From positions 3,409-47,679 of the forward strand of contig JAIXKN010000079.1 of assembly GCA_026932425.1 (NCBI GenBank): 44,271 nt of DNA, written 5' to 3'. Source of the DNA: Burkholderiales bacterium (GTDB lineage: Bacteria; Pseudomonadota; Gammaproteobacteria; Burkholderiales; Burkholderiaceae_C). Positions 1,575 through 44,271 of this stretch are shown here, piece by piece. The position numbers were made by a program, and so were the translations under genes. The notes below the pieces were generated by a model that did no database searches, had not been told where the DNA came from, and saw only the letters and a program-made list of their open reading frames with translations. Each line of letters starts with the position of its first letter. Positions within the stretch are counted from its first letter, which is position 1.

Positions 1575-1807
1575 AGGCCCGGTCGATCGACGAGAGCGTG
1601 CGCGTCGCGCTCGAGCAGTATTTCGACGACCTGCGCGGAACCGACCCGCACGGGGTGCACGAGATGATCATCCAGGCCGTCGAGCGGCCCTTGCTGGACT
1701 TCGTGATGAAGCGCGCCGAAGGCAACCAGAGCAAGGCCGCCGAATGGCTCGGCATCAACCGCAACACGCTGCGCCGCAAGCTGCTGGACCACAAGCTGCT
1801 GCCCTGA
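1571..1807 (+). CDS. fis: Fis-family nucleoid-associated DNA-binding protein
   Basis: The 78-residue product ends in the typical Fis helix-turn-helix: EGNQSKAAEWLGINRNTLRR followed by KLLDHKLLP. Fis bends DNA and regulates rRNA, tRNA and growth-phase genes. I chose the GTG at 1571, which overlaps the dusB stop by four bases; a second in-frame GTG lies two codons upstream at 1565 and cannot be excluded. The length agrees with betaproteobacterial Fis (about 77-79) and is shorter than the 98 residues of E. coli Fis. Translation is probably coupled to dusB. A 66-base gap then separates it from purH on the same strand, so one transcript may cover all three. Confidence 0.92.
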   Translation: MKARSIDESVRVALEQYFDDLRGTDPHGVHEMIIQAVERPLLDFVMKRAEGNQSKAAEWLGINRNTLRRKLLDHKLLP

Positions 1808-1873
1808 GCCTGCCTGCATCCTCACTCGCTGCCTCGTCCGGGTGCAGCACCAATTTTCATCATCACCGCTGCC

Positions 1874-3460
1874 ATGGCCGAACTCACCGCCCTCATCTCC
1901 GTTTCCGACAAGGCCGGCGTGGTCGATTTCGCACGTGAGCTGCATCGGCTGGGCGTGCGGCTCCTCTCGACCGGGGGCACGGCGCGGCTGCTGATGGACG
2001 CGGGTCTGCCGGTGACCGAGGTCGCCGAGCTCACCGGCTTTCCGGAGATGCTCGACGGCCGCGTGAAGACGCTGCACCCGCGCATCCACGCCGGCCTGCT
2101 CGCGCGGCGCGAGCTGCCGGCGCACATAGCCGCGCTGCGCGAGCACGACATCGGGACGATCGACCTGCTCGTCGTCAACCTCTACCCCTTCGCGCAGGCC
2201 ACGGCGCGCGCCGACTGCACGCTCGAGGAGGCGATCGAGAACATCGACATCGGCGGCCCGGCGATGCTGCGTGCCGCCGCGAAGAACTGGCCCGACGTCA
2301 CGGTGCTCATCGACCCGGAGGACTACCCACGCGTGCTCGCCGAGATCGAGGCCGGCGGCGTCGGCCGCAACACGCGCTTCGCCCTGGCGCGCAAGGTCTA
2401 CGCGCATACCGCCGCGTACGACGGCATGGTCAGCAACTACCTCGGCTCGCTGCTGGCCGGGGCCGAGGACAAGGTCGGTGCAGTGCCCGCGCGCGAGCCT
2501 TTCCCGGCGGTCTACAACCTGCAGCTCGTGAAGACGCAGGACATGCGCTACGGCGAGAACCCGCACCAGGCCGCCGCCTTCTACCGCGAGGGACGCCCCG
2601 GCGCGGGGTTGCTGGCCGGCTGGACGCAGCTTCAGGGCAAGGAGCTCAGCTACAACAACATCGCCGATGCCGACGCCGCCTGGGAGTGCGTGCGCAGCTT
2701 CGAAGACCTGCCGGCCTGCGTCATCGTCAAGCACGCCAATCCCTGCGGCGTCGCCGTCGGCGCAACGCTGGTCGAGGCTTACCACAAGGCCTGGCAGACC
2801 GACCCGACCTCGGCCTACGGCGGCATCGTCGCGCTCAACCGGCCGCTGGACGAGGAGACGGCGCGGCGCATCGGCGAGAACAAGCAGTTCGTCGAGGTGC
2901 TGATCGCGCCGTCGATCTCGCCCGAGGCGCGCGCGATCTTCGCCGCCAAGCAGAACGTGCGCCTGCTCGAGGTGCCGCTGGGCGCGGCGGTCAACGGGAT
3001 GGACTTCAAGCGCGTCGGCGGCGGCATGCTGCTGCAGACGCCGGACGTGAAGAACGTGGGCCACGCCGAGCTGCGCGTGGTGACGAAGAAGGCGCCGACC
3101 GAGGCCCAGCTGGCCGACCTGCTCTTCGCCTGGAAGGTGGCCAAGTTCGTGAAGAGCAACGCGATCGTCTTCTGCGGCGGCGGCATGACGCTGGGCGTGG
3201 GCGCCGGGCAGATGAGCCGCATCGACAGCGCGCGCATTGCGCGCATCAAGGCCGGCAACGCCGGCCTGTCGCTGCAGGGCTCGGCGGTGGCCAGCGACGC
3301 CTTCTTCCCGTTCCGCGACGGCCTGGACGTCGTCGTCGACGAAGGCGCGGCCTGCGTGATCCAGCCCGGCGGCTCGATGCGCGACGACGAGGTCATCGCC
3401 GCGGCCGACGAGCGCGGCATCGCGATGGTCTTCACCGGCACACGGCACTTCCGACACTGA
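1874..3460 (+). CDS. purH: Bifunctional AICAR formyltransferase / IMP cyclohydrolase PurH
   Basis: The 528-residue protein carries out the last two steps of de novo purine synthesis: formylation of AICAR with 10-formyl-THF and closure to IMP. The N-terminal cyclohydrolase (MGS-like) domain of about 200 residues starts [18 protein letters not shown] and contains [10 protein letters not shown] and [13 protein letters not shown]. The C-terminal transformylase domain contains [11 protein letters not shown], the catalytic KHANPCG segment, [10 protein letters not shown] and FFPFRDGLD. The length is as expected. The order fis-purH is conserved in Burkholderiales. The usual next gene, ruvC, starts 4.4 kb further on, after an inserted-looking block. 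The ATG at 1874 has no strong Shine-Dalgarno sequence. Confidence 0.97.
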
Positions 3461-3571
3461 TCATCCCCTCGGGCATCTCCTCGGGGCAGCGCCTCCCTGC
3501 GGCGGTGTCGTGTTGCCGTTTCTTGACGCGACGCAACTTGAACCGACGGACTCATCACGATTTGTTTCTAG

Positions 3572-3596
3572 AATGCAAATTCTTCTCATTTGCGTT
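3572..3596 (+). promoter_or_regulatory. Fur-like palindromic operator upstream of the TonB receptor
   Basis: Nine-base arms AATGCAAAT and ATTTGCGTT, one mismatch in nine pairs, flank TCTTCTC. The stretch is AT-rich in a GC-rich surrounding and ends 11 bases before the receptor ATG. The composition and the TCTCATTTGC half resemble Fur boxes found in front of siderophore and heme receptors of betaproteobacteria. A TAGAAT -10-like hexamer (3569-3574) overlaps its left edge, so a bound repressor would block transcription. Assignment to Fur rather than another metal regulator (Zur) is inference. Confidence 0.6.
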
Positions 3597-3607
3597 TGAA
3601 GGAACTG

Positions 3608-5686
3608 ATGAACAAGAACGCAAGGCCGTGCGCGGCACGACGCCCTCGCCTCACGAGGCTTGATCTGATGGTCGGCTTGGCGCTGCCTGCGCTGGCTGCC
3701 GGACCCGCGTTCGCTCAGGATGGCGCAGCGCCGCAGACCGTGGTGATCAGTGCCAAGGGCTATGAGGCGACAGACGTGGATACGCCGATATCGCTCACCG
3801 TGCTCGAACGCGAAGCGCTCTTTCGCAGCGGTGCGCTGAACCCGGGCGAGGCGCTTCGTGGGCAGCCCGGCCTCTCGGTCATGATCGACAGCGCGCAGGG
3901 CCTGAACCCGGTCATCCGCGGGCTGAAGAAGGAAAGCGTGGTGCTGCTCGTCGACGGCATGCGGCTGAACTCGGCGCAGCCGCAGGGCGCGGTAGCTTCC
4001 TTTATGTCGCTCGGCCTGGCCGAGCGGCTCGAAGTCGTCAAGGGGCCGGCGTCGGTGCTCTACGGCACCGGTGCGCTCGGCGGCGTCGTCAACGTGCTGC
4101 TGCCGCAGGCTCGCTTCGACTCCGACCTCACGCTGCGCGCGAGCCTGGGCGGCGAGAGCGCCAACGAGGCCTTGCGCGGCGCGGCGGTGATGAATCTGAG
4201 TCAGGGCGACCACGGCCTCATGCTCGGCTTGGCCGGCGCCCGCGTGCACGACTACGAGTCGCCGCAGGGCCGCGTCGATCACACCGGCTTCGACAGCGGA
4301 TCGGCGATCGCCCAGTACCGCATGCGCATCGACCCGCGCCAGCAGTTGCGCGCGTCCTACCAGCGCCATCGCGACGACGATGTCTGGTATCCAGGATCGA
4401 TCAAGCCGCTGCCCAATCCCGCGCTGGGTACCTCCATCATTCACTCGCCCCGGCAGGAGCGCGAGCTCGCCGAGATCGGCTACAGCCGCGCCGGCAGCGA
4501 CAAGCTGCCGCTGAACGTCGACCTGCGCCTGTACCGGCAGGCGATGTCGCGCACGATCTGGTCACGCGCGCTCCAACTCGAGCGCGAGACGGCACAGACC
4601 ACGGTCGAGTTCGAAACCTGGGGCATCGACGCTAAGGCCGACTGGCTCGTTCATCCGCAGCATCTTCTGGCCATGGGCGTGAGCGCCTGGCGCATGGAGG
4701 CCTCCCCGGAGCGCTTGCTGACCAACCCGACACCGCTATCGCCGCTGGTGCGCAACGACCCGTTCGCCGACGGCCGCCTCGAGGCGCTTGGCGCCTTCGT
4801 CCAGGACGACATGAAGTTCGGTAAGCTCGGCGTCCTCGCCGCGCTGCGGCTGGACCACGTCGCCGGCCGCGCGGCTTCGATGGGCAACGGTTCCGTCACG
4901 CAAGGGCTTTCGCGCAGCGACAACACCGCATCCTGGAGCCTGGGTGCGATCTACGAGGTGACGCCGCTGCTGCGCCCCTACGCCAGCCTCGCGCGCGCCT
5001 TCCGCGCCGGCGAGATGCGCGAGCGCTTCGAAGCCTCGCCGCGCGGAGATGGTCATTTCTATCTCGGCAACCCGCAGATCGCACCCGAGAAGGCGACGCA
5101 GCTCGAGCTGGGGGTGAAGGGCGCCGACGCCAGCCTGTCCTGGTCCGCAGCGGTGTTTCACAACCGCATCAGCGACTACATCACCGGCCAGCCCACGGGA
5201 ACGGTCCAGAACGGCCTGCCGGTGAAGGCCACCGTCAACCTCGGTCGGGTCGAGATCAATGGCTTCGAAGCGCAGGCTCGCTGGCGTGTGGCGTCCGCGC
5301 AGTGGCTGAACGCCGGGCTGTCGTCGCTGCGCGGCAAGAACAAGGATCTCGACGAGCCTTTGTTCCAGATGCCCGCCGACGAGCTCTCGCTTGGCTGGGA
5401 CGGGGAAATCGCGCCCGGCTGGAGCGCCGACGCCACGCTCCGTTTCGTTCGCCGCCAGAACCGCGTCGCCACCCGCTTCTCGCTTGGCAGCGAGAACGCC
5501 ACGCCCGGCTTCGCGACCGCCGACTTCGGCTTGAACTGGCGCTTCGCGCGCGACCAGCAACTTCGCCTGGCGGTCAGAAACCTCGCCGACAAAACCTATC
5601 ACGAGCACCTCACCGAAGGTCTTTCCGGCCAGGAAATCCCGGCCGCAGGCCGTAGCATCCTCGTCGGCTGGCAGGGAAAATTTTGA
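3608..5686 (+). CDS. TonB-dependent outer-membrane receptor, probably iron/heme or other metal
   Basis: The 692-residue product has a signal peptide (positive start, then LMVGLALPALAAGPAFAQ). A TonB-box-like TVVISAKGYE follows, then a plug domain with LNPVIRGLKKESVVLLVDGMR and VVKGPASVLYGTGALGGVVN, and a beta-barrel ending in the aromatic LVGWQGKF. Near residues 460-490 FRAGEMRERFE and GDGHFYLGNPQIAPEKA are arranged like the FRAP and NPNL boxes of heme receptors, with a histidine between them; copper and zinc receptors look similar, so the ligand is open. I chose ATG 3608 (AAGGA four bases upstream) over the TTG at 3590. A Fur-like palindrome precedes it. No TonB/ExbBD or ABC importer is nearby, so it is a stand-alone receptor gene sitting between purH and ruvC. 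Confidence 0.85.
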   Translation: MNKNARPCAARRPRLTRLDLMVGLALPALAAGPAFAQDGAAPQTVVISAKGYEATDVDTPISLTVLEREALFRSGALNPGEALRGQPGLSVMIDSAQGLNPVIRGLKKESVVLLVDGMRLNSAQPQGAVASFMSLGLAERLEVVKGPASVLYGTGALGGVVNVLLPQARFDSDLTLRASLGGESANEALRGAAVMNLSQGDHGLMLGLAGARVHDYESPQGRVDHTGFDSGSAIAQYRMRIDPRQQLRASYQRHRDDDVWYPGSIKPLPNPALGTSIIHSPRQERELAEIGYSRAGSDKLPLNVDLRLYRQAMSRTIWSRALQLERETAQTTVEFETWGIDAKADWLVHPQHLLAMGVSAWRMEASPERLLTNPTPLSPLVRNDPFADGRLEALGAFVQDDMKFGKLGVLAALRLDHVAGRAASMGNGSVTQGLSRSDNTASWSLGAIYEVTPLLRPYASLARAFRAGEMRERFEASPRGDGHFYLGNPQIAPEKATQLELGVKGADASLSWSAAVFHNRISDYITGQPTGTVQNGLPVKATVNLGRVEINGFEAQARWRVASAQWLNAGLSSLRGKNKDLDEPLFQMPADELSLGWDGEIAPGWSADATLRFVRRQNRVATRFSLGSENATPGFATADFGLNWRFARDQQLRLAVRNLADKTYHEHLTEGLSGQEIPAAGRSILVGWQGKF

Positions 5687-7071: not shown

Positions 7072-7166
7072 GTTGGTCGGCGCAGGCCGGTCACGACATC
7101 GCCCTTCGCTGGCCGAGCAACTCCGCCGGCACGAATGCGAACCAGCGGGCGGGAGACCCGAACAGA

Positions 7167-7508
7167 CTATCCGTCACCGTCCTCCGCAAGCATGGCGCGC
7201 ACGCTGGCCTCCAACGGACCGAGATGCTGCTCGACGACACGGGCGACCGTCGCGGCATCGATCGTTCCGAGATAGTTGTGAACAAGGATGTTGCGAAACC
7301 CGCTGATCTCTCGCCAGGGGATCTGCGGGTGCCCGGACTTCAGTCCATCAGGCAGCAACTGCGTGGCCTCCGACAGCGTCTGCAGGTTGCGCAGCGTGGC
7401 GTCATACAGCACTTCATCCTCGACAATGCTTCCGCGCGATTCGATGCGCCGGATCCTCGCCACCGCGTCGAGGATGTGCCGGGCATAAGGCTGCCAAGGC
7501 TTGTTCAC
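7167..7508 (-). CDS. HepT-like HEPN-domain toxin of an MNT-HEPN pair
   Basis: The 113-residue alpha-helical HEPN protein (DUF86 family) carries the RX4HXY signature as RNILVHNY at residues 72-79, the catalytic or modified site of HepT ribonuclease toxins. Its start ATG overlaps the stop of the upstream nucleotidyltransferase gene (ATGA), the standard arrangement for this family. In characterised pairs the MNT partner adds AMP to the tyrosine of this motif and so neutralises the toxin; Tyr79 is the expected target here. The pair lies on the minus strand between plus-strand genes and shares an intergenic region with ruvC. Confidence 0.88.
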   Translation of the reverse strand: MNKPWQPYARHILDAVARIRRIESRGSIVEDEVLYDATLRNLQTLSEATQLLPDGLKSGHPQIPWREISGFRNILVHNYLGTIDAATVARVVEQHLGPLEASVRAMLAEDGDG

Positions 7509-7795
7509 AGCTCCACGGCCTCTTCGAGAACCCGGCCGCGGATATGCCGGCTGAGCTCGTGTTCGGGCACGACGTCCACCGCACGGACGAACAATTTCGC
7601 CAATTCTTCGGCAAGCGGCATGCGTTGGGCGAACAAGTCGTAGCCCGCGGGGAAGTCGACCAGGAAATCGATGTCGCTGTCCGGCGTCTCATCGCCGCGC
7701 GCCACGGAGCCGAATACACGGATGCGCCGCGCACCGTAGCGACGGCCAAGGGCGGCGACTTCGTGTCGTCGCGCACGCAGTTCCTCGAGCAGCAT
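7505..7795 (-). CDS. MntA-like minimal nucleotidyltransferase antitoxin
   Basis: The 96-residue protein has the GSX10DXD nucleotidyltransferase signature: Gly29-Ser30 in VFGSVARG and Asp41/Asp43 in SDIDFLVD. In known MntA-HepT systems it acts as the antitoxin by AMPylating HepT. I chose the ATG at 7795-7793 (MLLEELRARRHEVAALG). The frame stays open upstream to 7927 but would then run into ruvC, and that part has no family resemblance. The 94 bases between it and ruvC must hold both divergent promoters; no obvious operator is visible. Confidence 0.86.
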   Translation of the reverse strand: MLLEELRARRHEVAALGRRYGARRIRVFGSVARGDETPDSDIDFLVDFPAGYDLFAQRMPLAEELAKLFVRAVDVVPEHELSRHIRGRVLEEAVEL

Positions 7796-7889
7796 GCGAT
7801 GATCGTAGCCTGCCCTCGGGGCATGCCGCAACGCGCGCAAGCCGTATGCTCCGACATGCCCCCTCGATCGCCGAACGCCGCCCCCGCCC

Positions 7890-8438
7890 ATGCTCATCCT
7901 CGGCATCGATCCCGGCCTGCAGCGCACCGGCTTCGGTGTCGTCGAGGCCGTCGGGCAGCGGCTGTCCTACGTCGCCAGCGGCACCATCGCCACCGCCGAG
8001 GCGCCGCGCGGTGACCTGCCGCAGCGGCTGAAGATCATCTTCGAGGGCGTGCGCGAGGTCGTGCGCCGCTACGAGCCGCAGTGCGCGGCGGTGGAGATCG
8101 TCTTCGTCAACGTCAACCCGCAGAGCACGCTGCTGCTCGGGCAGGCGCGCGGCGCGGCGCTGGCCGCGCTCGTCGCGGCCGGCCTGCCGGTGGCCGAATA
8201 CACCGCGCTGCAGATGAAGAAGGCCGTGGTCGGACACGGCCTGGCCAACAAGAACCAGGTGCAGGAGATGGTGCGCCGCCTGCTCGCCCTGTCCACGCCG
8301 CCGGGCCGCGATGCGGCGGACGCTCTGGGCCTGGCGATCTCGCACGCGCATGCCGGCGCCTCGTTCGCGGCGCTGGCCGCGGCCGCGCCCTTGCAGCGGC
8401 GCCAGCACGCGCAGTACCGCAAGGGCCGCACCTACTGA
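7890..8438 (+). CDS. ruvC: Crossover junction endodeoxyribonuclease RuvC
   Basis: This 182-residue resolvase of Holliday junctions starts [19 protein letters not shown]. Asp7 is the first acidic metal ligand. Further acidic ligands are in [14 protein letters not shown], and the last is in [32 protein letters not shown] is also characteristic. The length is normal (about 173-185). RuvC usually works with RuvAB branch migration motors. In many Burkholderiales ruvAB lie just downstream, but here the next gene is a dienelactone hydrolase and no ruvAB is in the window. Confidence 0.97.
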
Positions 8439-8461
8439 ACACCCGCCCACGGAGGACTCCG

Positions 8462-9160
8462 ATGAACGCACCCGTCCGCACGCAATGGCTGACGATCGCC
8501 CCCGGCTTCGACGCCTACCTGGCCTTGCCCCCGGCCGACCGCGGCCCGGGGCTCGTGCTCTTCCAGGAGATCTTCGGCGTCAACCCGCACATCCGCGCGG
8601 TCGCCGAGCAGTACGCGGCCGACGGCTTCGTCGTGCTGGCCCCCGACGTCTTCTGGCGCCAGGCGCCGCGCGTCGAGCTCGGCTACGAAGACGCCGACCG
8701 TCGGCGCGGGATGGCGCTGGCCAGCGCCTGCAAGCTGGACGATCTGCTTGCCGACATCGCCAGCACCGTCGCCGCGCTGCGCGCGCGACCGGAGGTCGGC
8801 ACGGCCAAGGTCGGCGCGCTCGGCTACTGCATGGGCGGGCGCCTGGCCTGGCTCGCCGCGGCGACGACCGACATCGACGCGGCCGTGCCCTTCTACGGCG
8901 GCGGCATCCACACGATGCTGGACCGCGCGGCGAGCATCCGCTGCCCGCTGCAGTTCCACTACGCCGGGCGCGATGCGCACATTCCGCTTTCGGCGGTCGA
9001 GCAGGTGCGTGAGGCGCTCGTGGGCAAGCCGGCCGAGCTGCATGTGTACCCCGGCGCCGAGCACGGCTTCAACTGCTGGTCGCGCGATTCCTACCACGCC
9101 GCCAGCGCGGCGCTCGCGCACGGCCGCGCGACGGCGTTCCTCGCGCAGCAGCTCTTCTGA
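8462..9160 (+). CDS. Dienelactone hydrolase family protein
   Basis: The 232-residue alpha/beta hydrolase has the full set of dienelactone hydrolase residues. These are the partner glutamate in LFQEIFGVN (about Glu36), the nucleophile cysteine in GYCMGGRLAW (about Cys123), an aspartate in YAGRDAHIP and a histidine in GAEHGFNCW. Characterised relatives hydrolyse dienelactone to maleylacetate in chloroaromatic breakdown, but many chromosomal members have no known substrate. The ATG is six bases after GGAGG and 23 bases after ruvC, so it is likely co-transcribed with ruvC. No other catabolic genes are nearby, so the substrate cannot be named. Confidence 0.9.
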   Translation: MNAPVRTQWLTIAPGFDAYLALPPADRGPGLVLFQEIFGVNPHIRAVAEQYAADGFVVLAPDVFWRQAPRVELGYEDADRRRGMALASACKLDDLLADIASTVAALRARPEVGTAKVGALGYCMGGRLAWLAAATTDIDAAVPFYGGGIHTMLDRAASIRCPLQFHYAGRDAHIPLSAVEQVREALVGKPAELHVYPGAEHGFNCWSRDSYHAASAALAHGRATAFLAQQLF

Positions 9161-41696: not shown

Positions 41697-41987
41697 ATGG
41701 CCCCATCCGAGACCACCCGCACCGCCCGCGTCGAAGCGCGCATCGCGCCCGACGCGCTCGCCGTCGTCCGTCGCGCCGCGGAGTTGCAGGGCCGCAGCAT
41801 CAGTGACTTCGTCGTCGCCGCCGCCCTCAAGGATGCACAGCGCACCATCGAAGATGCGCAGATCATCCGGCTCAGCGTCGAGGATCAGCAGCGCTTCGCC
41901 GCGCTGTTGATCGATCCGCCTCCCCTGGCGGCTGCGATGAAGCGCGCGCTGAAGGCCAGGCAAAGCCTGATCGCCGACGTCAAGTGA
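41697..41987 (+). CDS. DUF1778/TacA-like ribbon-helix-helix antitoxin
   Basis: The 96-residue product has an N-terminal ribbon-helix-helix (TTRTARVEARIAPDALAVVR, RRAAELQGRSISDFVVAAAL). The C-terminal neutralising tail contains IIRLSVEDQQRFAALLIDPP, the DUF1778 signature. It should bind the downstream acetyltransferase and repress the operon through the iterons. GGAGGG precedes the ATG by about eight bases. The TGA overlaps the toxin GTG (GTGA), fixing both coding ends. Confidence 0.92.
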   Translation: MAPSETTRTARVEARIAPDALAVVRRAAELQGRSISDFVVAAALKDAQRTIEDAQIIRLSVEDQQRFAALLIDPPPLAAAMKRALKARQSLIADVK

Positions 41988-42496
41988 CCGCGCCGTTTCG
42001 CCTGGAGCCCCTGGGGCCCAGCCACGAACGGGGCGGATTCTCCTGCGGCGTCGAGGTGCTGGATCAGTACCTCGCCACACGCGCCGGCCAGGACGTTCGG
42101 CGCCGCGTCAGCGCCTGTTATGTCGCCGTCGAAGTCAGCTCCGGCAAGCTGGCAGGCTTCTACACCCTGGCTGCCGCGAGCGTGCCGCTGGTCGAATTGC
42201 CGTCGGATGTGAGCAAGCGCCTCCCACGCTATCCCGCGGTCCCGGTGGCCCGGCTCGGCCGCTTGGCCATCGCCAACGCGTTCCAGGGGAAGGGACTCGG
42301 CGGCGCCCTGCTCGCCGATGCCGCCCTGTGCGCTGCCCGGTCGGAGCTTGCAGTCTTCGCACTGGTCGTCGACGCCAAGGACGAAGAGGCAGGCGCCTTC
42401 TACCGCCATCACGGTTTCGAGCCCATCGGCGGCAATGAGCGGAAGTTGTTCCTCGCGCTCGAGCGGTTCACCCGGACGGCCGAGGGGTCCGTCTGA
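41984..42496 (+). CDS. TacT-like GNAT acetyltransferase toxin
   Basis: The 170-residue GNAT protein has the acetyl-CoA loop in VARLGRLAIANAFQGKGLGG and the tyrosine-containing FYRHHGFEPI near the C-terminus. FSCGVEVLDQYLATRAGQD is the typical N-terminal block of TacT toxins. These toxins acetylate the amino group of charged tRNA and stop translation. The gene starts at GTG 41984, overlapping the antitoxin stop by four bases. All motifs are intact, so the module is probably functional. Confidence 0.92.
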   Translation: MTAPFRLEPLGPSHERGGFSCGVEVLDQYLATRAGQDVRRRVSACYVAVEVSSGKLAGFYTLAAASVPLVELPSDVSKRLPRYPAVPVARLGRLAIANAFQGKGLGGALLADAALCAARSELAVFALVVDAKDEEAGAFYRHHGFEPIGGNERKLFLALERFTRTAEGSV

Positions 42497-42572: not shown

Positions 42573-42809
42573 GTGGCCGCCGCCGACGTCGTCCGCTCCA
42601 CCGTCTATCTGCTGCCCGAGCTGCACCAGGCCTTGCGCCTGAAGGCCGCGCAAAGCCAGCGCAGCATGTCCGACATCGTCAACGAAGCCCTGCGCCAGGC
42701 GCTGCGTGAGGACGAGGAGGACCTGGCTGCCGTGCGTTCGCGCGCGAAGGAGCGGGCTCTCAGCTACGAGGATTTCCTAAGCAAGCTCAAGGCCGATGGC
42801 ACGCTTTGA
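42573..42809 (+). CDS. CopG/RelB-like antitoxin
   Basis: The 78-residue product has a ribbon-helix-helix part (VRSTVYLLPELHQALRLKAA, QSQRSMSDIVNEALRQALRE) and an acidic tail ending SYEDFLSKLKADGTL, suited to wrapping a RelE-type toxin. The start is GTG 42573 with GGAG eight bases upstream. It overlaps the toxin gene by 14 bases, a normal layout for type II modules. Confidence 0.88.
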   Translation: MAAADVVRSTVYLLPELHQALRLKAAQSQRSMSDIVNEALRQALREDEEDLAAVRSRAKERALSYEDFLSKLKADGTL

Positions 42810-43059
42810 GCTGCGCGTTCGGCCCTCGGTCGCCAAGGACCTTCGCGGCGTTCCGAAGGCGGACGTGAAGCGAATCCTGCGCCGCATCGAGGGTCTGCGC
42901 GAGGATCCGCGCGGCCCGGGCTGCGAGAAGTTGAGCGCCGCCGGGCTGTACCGGGCGCGCCAGGGCGCTGATCGGATCATCTACAAGATACACGATGAAT
43001 GCGTCATGGTCGAGGTGGTACGCGTCGGGCATCGAGGAGAGGCCTGGCGTCGCGGCTGA
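42796..43059 (+). CDS. RelE/ParE-family toxin
   Basis: The 87-residue product has the RelE fold pattern: start MARFELRVRPSVAKDLRGVP, middle GCEKLSAAGLYRARQGADRI and the C-terminal VRVGHRGEAWRR, which matches the VGHRxxVYR end of RelE toxins. The residues Arg and His there are the usual mRNA-cutting ones, so RelE-like ribosome-dependent mRNA cleavage is the likely activity. It is followed at once by degraded gene fragments. Confidence 0.9.
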   Translation: MARFELRVRPSVAKDLRGVPKADVKRILRRIEGLREDPRGPGCEKLSAAGLYRARQGADRIIYKIHDECVMVEVVRVGHRGEAWRRG

Positions 43060-43248: not shown

Positions 43249-43337
43249 TCCGGGTCGTGCTGGATACCGATGTGATCGTGGCCGCGCTGCGCAGCCCAGG
43301 CGGCGCAGCTACCGAGTTGCTGCGCCGGGTGCCATGA
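43245..43337 (+). pseudogene. Truncated PIN-domain toxin (N-terminal 30 residues)
   Basis: MIRVVLDTDVIVAALRSPGG followed by AATELLRRVP and a TGA matches the first strand and helix of the VapC-like PIN family of COG1569 type. The first acidic catalytic residue is present (Asp in LDTDV, usually LDTN), but the rest of the about 140-residue domain is missing. The ATG overlaps the stop of the restriction remnant (ATGA). The fragment ends 7 bases before the convergent helicase-type gene, so the break was probably made by the event that brought that gene in. Confidence 0.7.
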
Positions 43338-43344
43338 CTACGAA

Positions 43345-44241
43345 CTACTGGACGGTCGCGTCGACAGGTCTGTTGATTCCTTGAATGACGAAGGCCTGAG
43401 GCGTCCTGCCAGGCACGCGCAGGACCACGGTCTCCCCGACCGTCGCGCCGATAAGCTCAGACCCGAGAGGGGTCGTCGCTGCAACCAAGCCCAGGTCCAG
43501 GTTGGTCTGCCCGGCGGTGATACGAACACGAAGTGGCTTGTCGAGAGCTTCTTCCCGCGCGTAGGTAACAAGGTCCCCGATTTCAACTTCGCGTTCGTCT
43601 TCGTCGTCAGCGAAGACGAGGTCTTCGGGACGCTCATCGTCATCGAGATCTTCCGCCACAGGCGGAGAATCCATAGCGGGCTCCTGGGGCGCTTCCACCA
43701 TCAGATACTCGTCGGTAATCGGCTGCTGCTTCAGTTCATCCAGGAACTTCAGCAGGCGCTCGGTCTCATGGAGCGGATTCCGGAACCAGTCTGTTGACCA
43801 CACACGCCAGATTCGGTTCTTCCAGCCAAGGCTTTCCAGGATTTCCTGGCGGATTCGGTCTCGGTCGCGCACCGAGACGCCCGAGTGGTACGAAGCACCG
43901 TCGCACTCGACGGCAGCCAGATATCCAGACTTGTGCACCGGATGCTTGACGCCGATGTCAATGCGGAATCCGGCAACTCCGAGTTGCGGCTCAACCTCGT
44001 AGCCTCGGGCGCGAAGGACGTCCATGACAGCAATCTCGAAGTCGCTGTCCGGCGGCAGGCTCGTCTCCCGCTCGACCGGAAGCACACCGCTGCGGGCGTA
44101 CTCCAGGTAGTTTCGGAGCGCGCGGGTGCCCTCGGGGGTCTTGGCGTCGACCACAATGTCTCCGGGCTGCATGGAGCTGAATACAGCGACCGACTTGCGC
44201 GACCGGGTGAACAGGACTACAGGGACTTCCCACTGAGTCAA
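43345..44241 (-). CDS. C-terminal part of a helicase-type defence protein: MTES_1575/Vsr-like nuclease fused to GreA/GreB C-terminal-like domain
   Basis: The frame is open for 298 residues from a TTG at 44241. A TGA at 44265-44263 closes it upstream, so only poor starts exist. Residues 10-52 (FTRSRKSVAVFSSMQPGDIV, then EGTRALRNYLEYARSG) match the segment that follows the helicase core in DUF4011/DUF3320-type proteins. Residues 66-170 are a PD-(D/E)XK nuclease with Glu69, Asp95 (GFRIDIGV) and Glu112/Asp114 (AVECDGASYH). After an acidic linker (196-218), residues 219-292 match the FKBP-like C-terminal domain of GreA: IGDLVTYA, AATTPLGSELIGATVGETVV. The coiled coil of Gre factors is absent. Either a broken helicase or a stand-alone nuclease-Gre protein. 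Confidence 0.65.
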   Translation of the reverse strand: MTQWEVPVVLFTRSRKSVAVFSSMQPGDIVVDAKTPEGTRALRNYLEYARSGVLPVERETSLPPDSDFEIAVMDVLRARGYEVEPQLGVAGFRIDIGVKHPVHKSGYLAAVECDGASYHSGVSVRDRDRIRQEILESLGWKNRIWRVWSTDWFRNPLHETERLLKFLDELKQQPITDEYLMVEAPQEPAMDSPPVAEDLDDDERPEDLVFADDEDEREVEIGDLVTYAREEALDKPLRVRITAGQTNLDLGLVAATTPLGSELIGATVGETVVLRVPGRTPQAFVIQGINRPVDATVQ

Positions 44242-44271
44242 CAGATGGAGTGGTTTTCCTGATCAGCGGTA

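Follow-up and report, generated by a model that had tools for sequence, protein, structure and literature searches.

The window, that is, the whole stretch of 44,271 nucleotides analysed here from a Burkholderiales bacterium, closes on the reverse strand with the 3′ part of a gene (43345..44217; 290 codons and a stop) that is best described as a DUF4011/SF1-helicase/MTES_1575 gene of the Hhe type, whose tail is a GreA/GreB C-terminal domain. The initial annotation had delimited this feature as an open frame from 43345 to 44262. Such a frame does exist, and its 305-residue translation runs from 44262 to 43348 on the reverse strand, but the gene itself accounts only for 43345–44217; the initial 15 residues of this frame derive from a mobile element. 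As had been read from the letters, translation and Pfam placed four parts in this one frame, namely a post-helicase segment, an MTES_1575 restriction-endonuclease-like domain (43741..44040, reverse strand; residues 75–174 of the 305-residue frame; PF18741), an acidic linker (43603..43695, reverse strand) and a GreA/GreB C-terminal globular domain (43387..43596, reverse strand; residues 223–292; PF01272). The absence of the Gre-type coiled coil had also been noted, and it was borne out: within the 290 gene residues, neither Pfam nor a structure model revealed a GreA/GreB-type N-terminal coiled coil with an acidic tip. In the place where GreA or GreB would carry it, the tail is preceded by the acidic linker, which was modelled with low confidence (pLDDT below 50 at model residues 175–205).

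Several small genes surround this gene end. Next to it are two toxin-antitoxin-like pairs, one consisting of a TacA1-like protein and a GNAT acetyltransferase (window 41697–42496) and the other of a ribbon-helix-helix protein scoring just below the cut-off and a ParE-like toxin (42573–43059). On the forward strand, a short frame at 43257–43340, which is closed by a stop codon, resembles on visual inspection the beginning of a PIN-domain protein; a 26-residue piece of this frame gave no match in Pfam.

The last nucleotide of the window, 44271, is also the end of its contig (C99). In its final 54 bases (44218..44271, reverse strand) it shows full identity with one end of an element of 1504 bases. 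Contig C35 carries three copies of this element, whose transposase belongs to the IS110 family (Pfam: Transposase_20, 3.9e-26; DEDD_Tnp_IS110, 4.4e-14). The initial annotation had pointed to a TGA at 44265–44263 in place of the expected helicase region. This TGA is indeed present, but it belongs to the IS110 element and not to the gene, which rules out a nonsense change in the gene. The proposal to read the next 5 kb of the contig for the helicase part could not be followed, as the contig ends at 44271 and the helicase part is found on contig C11. The latter contig ends in 53–54 bases of the opposite end of the element, directly after an open frame encoding DUF4011 (PF13195, 6.7e-32), AAA_11 (PF13086, 7.9e-16) and AAA_12 (PF13087, 6.6e-7). 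Furthermore, the two parts follow each other along the Hhe profile NF042953 (length 1797), where the C11 part matches positions 1–1523 and the window part positions 1524–1691. The simplest reading is that the helicase and nuclease halves are one gene split by one copy of the element, at which the assembly (84% complete, 110 contigs) was broken; that a single copy fills the gap between C11 and C99 we infer from the element ends at both break points. The helicase part would thus be missing from the window owing to an insertion sequence and a contig break, and the window's copy of the gene is probably split and silent rather than working.

The three copies of the element on C35 (locus 109000–118000) occupy positions 1690–3193, 4117–5620 and 7111–8614 of that locus. 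Judged by eye, and by what we take to be the attC core motif, two of the three are located inside sites resembling integron attC sites. The IS1111 group targets attC, according to a title cited in PMC11187229. The element copy that we place in the defence gene would represent a different kind of target from these attC-like sites. On contig C11, an ADP-ribosylglycohydrolase-like gene (4.2e-53; 3548–5080 of locus L027) is situated beside the start of the split gene.

The nuclease domain was readily identified. In the 305-residue frame, MTES_1575 (PF18741) scored 116.5 bits against a cut-off of 38.2 (E 5.9e-34), in line with the PD-(D/E)XK nuclease of MTES_1575 type that had been proposed. The E...D...ExD residues named at the outset were also found to be kept in relatives: in an alignment of 75 related C-termini, E68, D94, E111 and D113 (numbered by the first row) were present in 72, 74, 75 and 75 rows, respectively, where E111 and D113 (as well as H118) are wholly or partly fixed by the motif used to pick the rows and E68 and D94 are not. 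The fold agreed with this assignment, since Foldseek matched the nuclease part of the model to PDB entries 3hrl and 3r3p, the latter being the homing endonuclease I-Bth0305I, with E values of 0.010–0.040 and target TM scores of 0.76–0.78. Two of the aligned genes from different genomes, L088 and L091, share the position of an in-frame stop within the nuclease domain, in both cases at 1920 and after WSTD.

The Gre-type tail is a weaker match in sequence. The GreA_GreB C-terminal family (PF01272) scored 27.0 bits against a cut-off of 26.9 when the whole frame was scanned (E 4.5e-6), and 30.8 bits when the tail was scanned alone (E 2.9e-7). Among seven tails scanned singly, four remained below the 26.9-bit cut-off (L015, 18.6; L016, 22.3; L067, 25.2; L101, 22.3), and the identity of five other tails to that of the window was 27–35%. 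A search of the PDB sequences with the single window protein returned one match alone, to an unrelated protein at E 1.3. When a profile of six tails was used for the same search, GreA (1grj, E 0.0047), Gfh1 (0.014) and Rnk (0.044) ranked first, and unrelated proteins appeared from E 0.074 on. The best-kept stretches among the six tails were E.GD.V.Y at the start of the tail and PL. The PL pair is not specially conserved, as E.GD.V.Y is kept equally well or better; counted along the six-tail profile alignment, it corresponds to P125–I126 of GreA, within the segment S124–G132.

In the model, which was built on 14 aligned relatives (mean pLDDT 75.5, pTM 0.51), the tail blocks at residues 211–280 reached pLDDT values of 87–90, and the last ten residues 61. 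The 13 best fold matches in the PDB were all chains of GreA, GreB, Gfh1 or Rnk (Foldseek E 1.3e-5 to 2.4e-3; target TM 0.38–0.51), with an rmsd of 2.5–4.6 over 70–85 aligned columns and of 14–17.5 over longer alignments, the latter range being attributed to the flexible linker. These were followed by one more Gre chain and by Toxoplasma mitoribosomal proteins (target TM 0.20; E from 2.4e-3), after which came 3hrl and 3r3p. We also considered whether the match to GreA merely reflects the composition of the acidic stretch. This was ruled out, because the match is located beyond the acidic residues, is found again in relatives and agrees with the fold. Both the nuclease domain and the Gre-type domain are therefore real, and the initial assignment of the tail to the GreA/GreB type holds. 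In fold, and weakly in sequence, the tail resembles GreA/GreB, Rnk and Gfh1, from which it differs by having no coiled coil and by its position behind a helicase-nuclease. One relative (L103, 3473–4849) continues past its Gre domain into an additional C-terminal extension, which weakly matches DUF4357 and RAMA. Of the 75 aligned C-termini, 20 weakly match the Pfam RAP domain (best 2.3e-5).

Taken with its C11 part, the gene has the features by which Hhe is recognised, all of which Hhe carries in one chain (NF042953, PDLC02194): the DUF4011 N-terminal domain and the UPF1-like SF1 helicase (AAA_11/AAA_12) are encoded on C11, and the MTES_1575/Vsr-type nuclease in the window. It differs from Hhe in that its score lies below the curated cut-off and in that the profile match ends ahead of the Gre tail. 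Scored apart, the C11 and window parts reached 1107.8 and 245.6 bits, respectively, where the NCBIfam equivalog cut-off for Hhe is 2000, and the unbroken relatives L015 (1356.3 bits) and L016 (1397.1 bits) were likewise below it. The second-best NCBIfam match over the same stretch was the ProA anti-phage protein (NF058533), with 899, 1087 and 1095 bits beside 1108, 1356 and 1397 for Hhe; these values are below the ProA cut-off of 1500, and the tail is left uncovered. With PADLOC, the candidate system PDC-S37 (PDLC05009) was the best match of both gene parts (C11 part, 984.5 bits, with Hhe at 726; window part, 221.9 bits). For the window, L015 and L016, the PDC-S37 match ends at position 1356–1364 of 1550, and in all three the Hhe, ProA and PDC-S37 matches stop before the Gre tail.

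Hhe has been placed among the UPF1-like SF1 helicases of defence systems (SF1_Upf1; PMC10925250), and Gao Hhe is listed among anti-phage systems (PMC13249269), as stated in the parts of these papers on which we draw. DUF4011 genes are not accessory defence genes in every case, since one of them belongs to the core genes of Pseudomonas aeruginosa, where it borders a defence hotspot (PMC10250203). The defence role suggested in the initial annotation is favoured by the Hhe and PDC-S37 profiles and by defence-type neighbours of relatives, but is weakened by scores below the curated NCBIfam cut-offs. Our best reading is that the gene is a variant of the Hhe helicase-nuclease with a putative RNA-polymerase docking module.

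The genome-wide count of the domain pair that had been recommended demonstrated that the pair recurs: 9 of the 75 related C-termini match GreA_GreB and 38 match DUF3320 (E 0.01). The fraction of 9 in 75 is not a natural frequency, because loci were available for the best matches to queries that themselves contain the tail, namely the best 30 of 48 in the phylum survey, 10 of 16 in the class survey, 9 of 9 among relatives of genome G474 and 12 of 29 in another class. Before counting, L032–L036 were removed for lack of the motif and L072 as a duplicate; L037 had not been included at all. Four rows (L041, L088, L091 and L092) are cut or stop short. Of these, L088 entered the count as a row without a tail, even though the match in its genome continues over the tail behind a stop. 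The identity of the nine Gre rows was inferred for seven from single scans, in none of which DUF3320 was found, and for the others from the six-tail profile, whose seeds are six of the nine.

The tail was also traced in several surveys of genomes, which overlap in the genomes covered. Of 61 relatives, 9 matched at 1e-5, and the tail was reached at the window's own place alone. The same was true across the phylum, where 46 of 398 genomes matched at 1e-20, at 48 places, and only the window's own match extended past position 223 of 301. Within the class, 14 of 369 genomes matched at 1e-20, at 16 places, and the tail was reached in G474 and G494 as well; 76 relatives of G474 (7 with a match, at 9 places) added G807. 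In another class, 28 of 385 genomes matched, at 29 places. Five of these places (in G917, G885, G1030, G991 and G859) reached at least position 276 of 293, G1030 with a stop inside and G991 and G859 as judged by the extent of the match. The tail was observed in 2 of 12 related loci on contigs of genomes and in 1 of 4 on viral contigs (L067). Searched alone against 72,556 plasmid records, it had no match at 0.01; the whole piece matched 384 plasmid records, one of which covers at least 80% of the query. A search of 50,697 phage records gave a single match, which was confined to the nuclease side. The source genome is not the sole carrier of the fusion, since unbroken relatives with the same tail exist in other bacteria.

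To place the tail on the history of the gene, the label "Gre" was mapped on a 73-row tree that was built without the tail and without L056 and L094. The label needed five changes, at least four of which are forced by well-supported branches, and none of 500 label shuffles was as low. Five changes were also needed when L041, L088, L091 and L092 were left uncounted, and four when L025 was left uncounted too. Six Gre rows, including the window, group with L025, which has a long branch, to make up a set of seven, and the other three form a group of seven with L039, L041, L084 and L088. In a 71-row tree, from which L025 and L090 were also removed, forcing the nine Gre rows together cost 95.9 log units (p-AU 7.7e-55). 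The nine Gre-tailed rows are thus not one clade. This means either that the tail was acquired on several occasions or that it was acquired early, possibly in one old event, and has since disappeared from several lineages.

As had been suggested, we also surveyed the neighbours of the fusion in other genomes. A defence-type gene was found near five of the seven scanned Gre-tailed loci (L016, L067, L099, L100 and L101), a count made over Gre-tailed loci only. L016 is flanked by an AAA_15 ATPase and an OLD-like TOPRIM protein, and L067 by a GmrSD protein, HsdM, Methylase_S and a type I restriction subunit. Upstream of L099 (G474) are the BREX genes for PglZ and BrxL, with a calcineurin-like phosphoesterase gene between, and downstream are genes for a helix-turn-helix protein and a dynamin-like protein. 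The neighbours of L100 (G807), a WYL regulator and a GmrSD protein, are much like those of L067, and the two look like versions of one locus. MkoA is encoded about 4.5 kb away from L101 (G494). L015 neighbours a WYL regulator and a PDDEXK_1 protein. L102 (G917) lies next to a serine recombinase, and no defence gene was found there when one neighbour was compared with PADLOC and one with Pfam. The neighbours of L103 (G885) appeared by eye to be housekeeping-like.

Together, these observations suggest a single-protein anti-phage helicase-nuclease of the Hhe kind in which a Gre-factor globular domain serves as C-terminal accessory domain. As the initial annotation had suggested in proposing a nuclease brought to RNA polymerase, this domain may, in the unbroken relatives, dock the enzyme on the rim helices of the polymerase's secondary channel, so that helicase and nuclease would act on nucleic acid under transcription. 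The substrate would above all be phage DNA, or possibly polymerase that is stalled on phage DNA or altered by the phage. In the genome of the window, the IS110-family insertion between helicase and nuclease would have put the gene out of use. In the sections of PMC7527559 cited here, Gre globular domains are reported to bind the β′ rim helices, and that of GreA to stay outside the secondary channel. The GreA variants S124L and L130P, altered in the segment with which the tail's PL aligns, kept 9% and 8% of the antipause activity, respectively; S121P weakened binding to the polymerase, and S124L preserved it (PMC7527559). According to the same source, both GreA domains seem to be required for specific polymerase binding, which makes docking by the tail alone less likely; it is our guess that the helicase supplies a second contact. 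We rank docking ahead of the alternatives in which the tail is a sensor or the enzyme resembles HelD, and we estimate the probability of a Hhe-kind helicase-nuclease docking on the polymerase via its Gre domain at about one half.

Conceivably, the Gre domain is a bait instead, which mimics Gre factors, binds phage proteins that attack Gre or the secondary channel, and thereby switches on the helicase-nuclease. The C-terminal modules vary on one body (DUF3320 on 38 of 75, GreA_GreB on 9 of 75), as a changing sensor would, but a docking domain would be swapped likewise. A preprint, in the part cited here, ties GreA to DRT3 immunity, as loss of greA removes the defence, and ST61 of phage T1, a trigger of DRT3, is predicted to resemble GreA and Spt4/5 (PMC13174585). 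We consider such a bait rather unlikely. The tail could also be a generic module for protein contact or folding that has no role at the polymerase. The low identity of the tails and the four single scans below the Pfam cut-off are what one would expect of such a module, and the apparent need of GreA for both of its domains (PMC7527559) points the same way. On the other hand, the best fold matches were Gre-family or Rnk chains throughout, and the tail recurs in rows outside one clade; for these reasons we judge the generic module to be unlikely.

HelD, which is an SF1-type enzyme, offers a further model. By analogy, the SF1 motor would attach to the secondary channel and clear stalled polymerase from the DNA, and the nuclease would destroy the material thus exposed, serving the resolution of conflicts more than defence. 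The abstract of PMC7749165 describes how a Gre-like coiled coil of the HelD NTPase enters the secondary channel and displaces nucleic acid, and, like HelD, the gene of the window combines an NTPase motor of this superfamily with a Gre-like element. However, HelD works by its coiled coil, which is absent here, where the Gre-like element is a globular domain, and the abstract names no nuclease. In addition, several relatives have defence-type neighbours, and a related protein is present in few genomes (for example, 14 of 369 at 1e-20). We therefore regard the HelD-like alternative as improbable.

No paper on a fusion of a Gre domain with a Hhe-type enzyme was found in the open-licence literature, a scope that leaves out most subscription journals, and the portions of the defence literature cited here contained no account of how Hhe-type helicases work. 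A Gre domain that recurs on these helicases would suggest a concrete site of action for them. It would also fit the requirement for GreA in DRT3 immunity (PMC13174585), which hints that the transcription machinery is a place where defence systems sense phage. Tentatively, and with more doubt than for docking itself, one may think of a transcription-coupled branch of anti-phage defence, which arose in more than one lineage and in which Hhe-type enzymes ride on the polymerase, or are called to it, and destroy the DNA that it reads or on which it is stalled.
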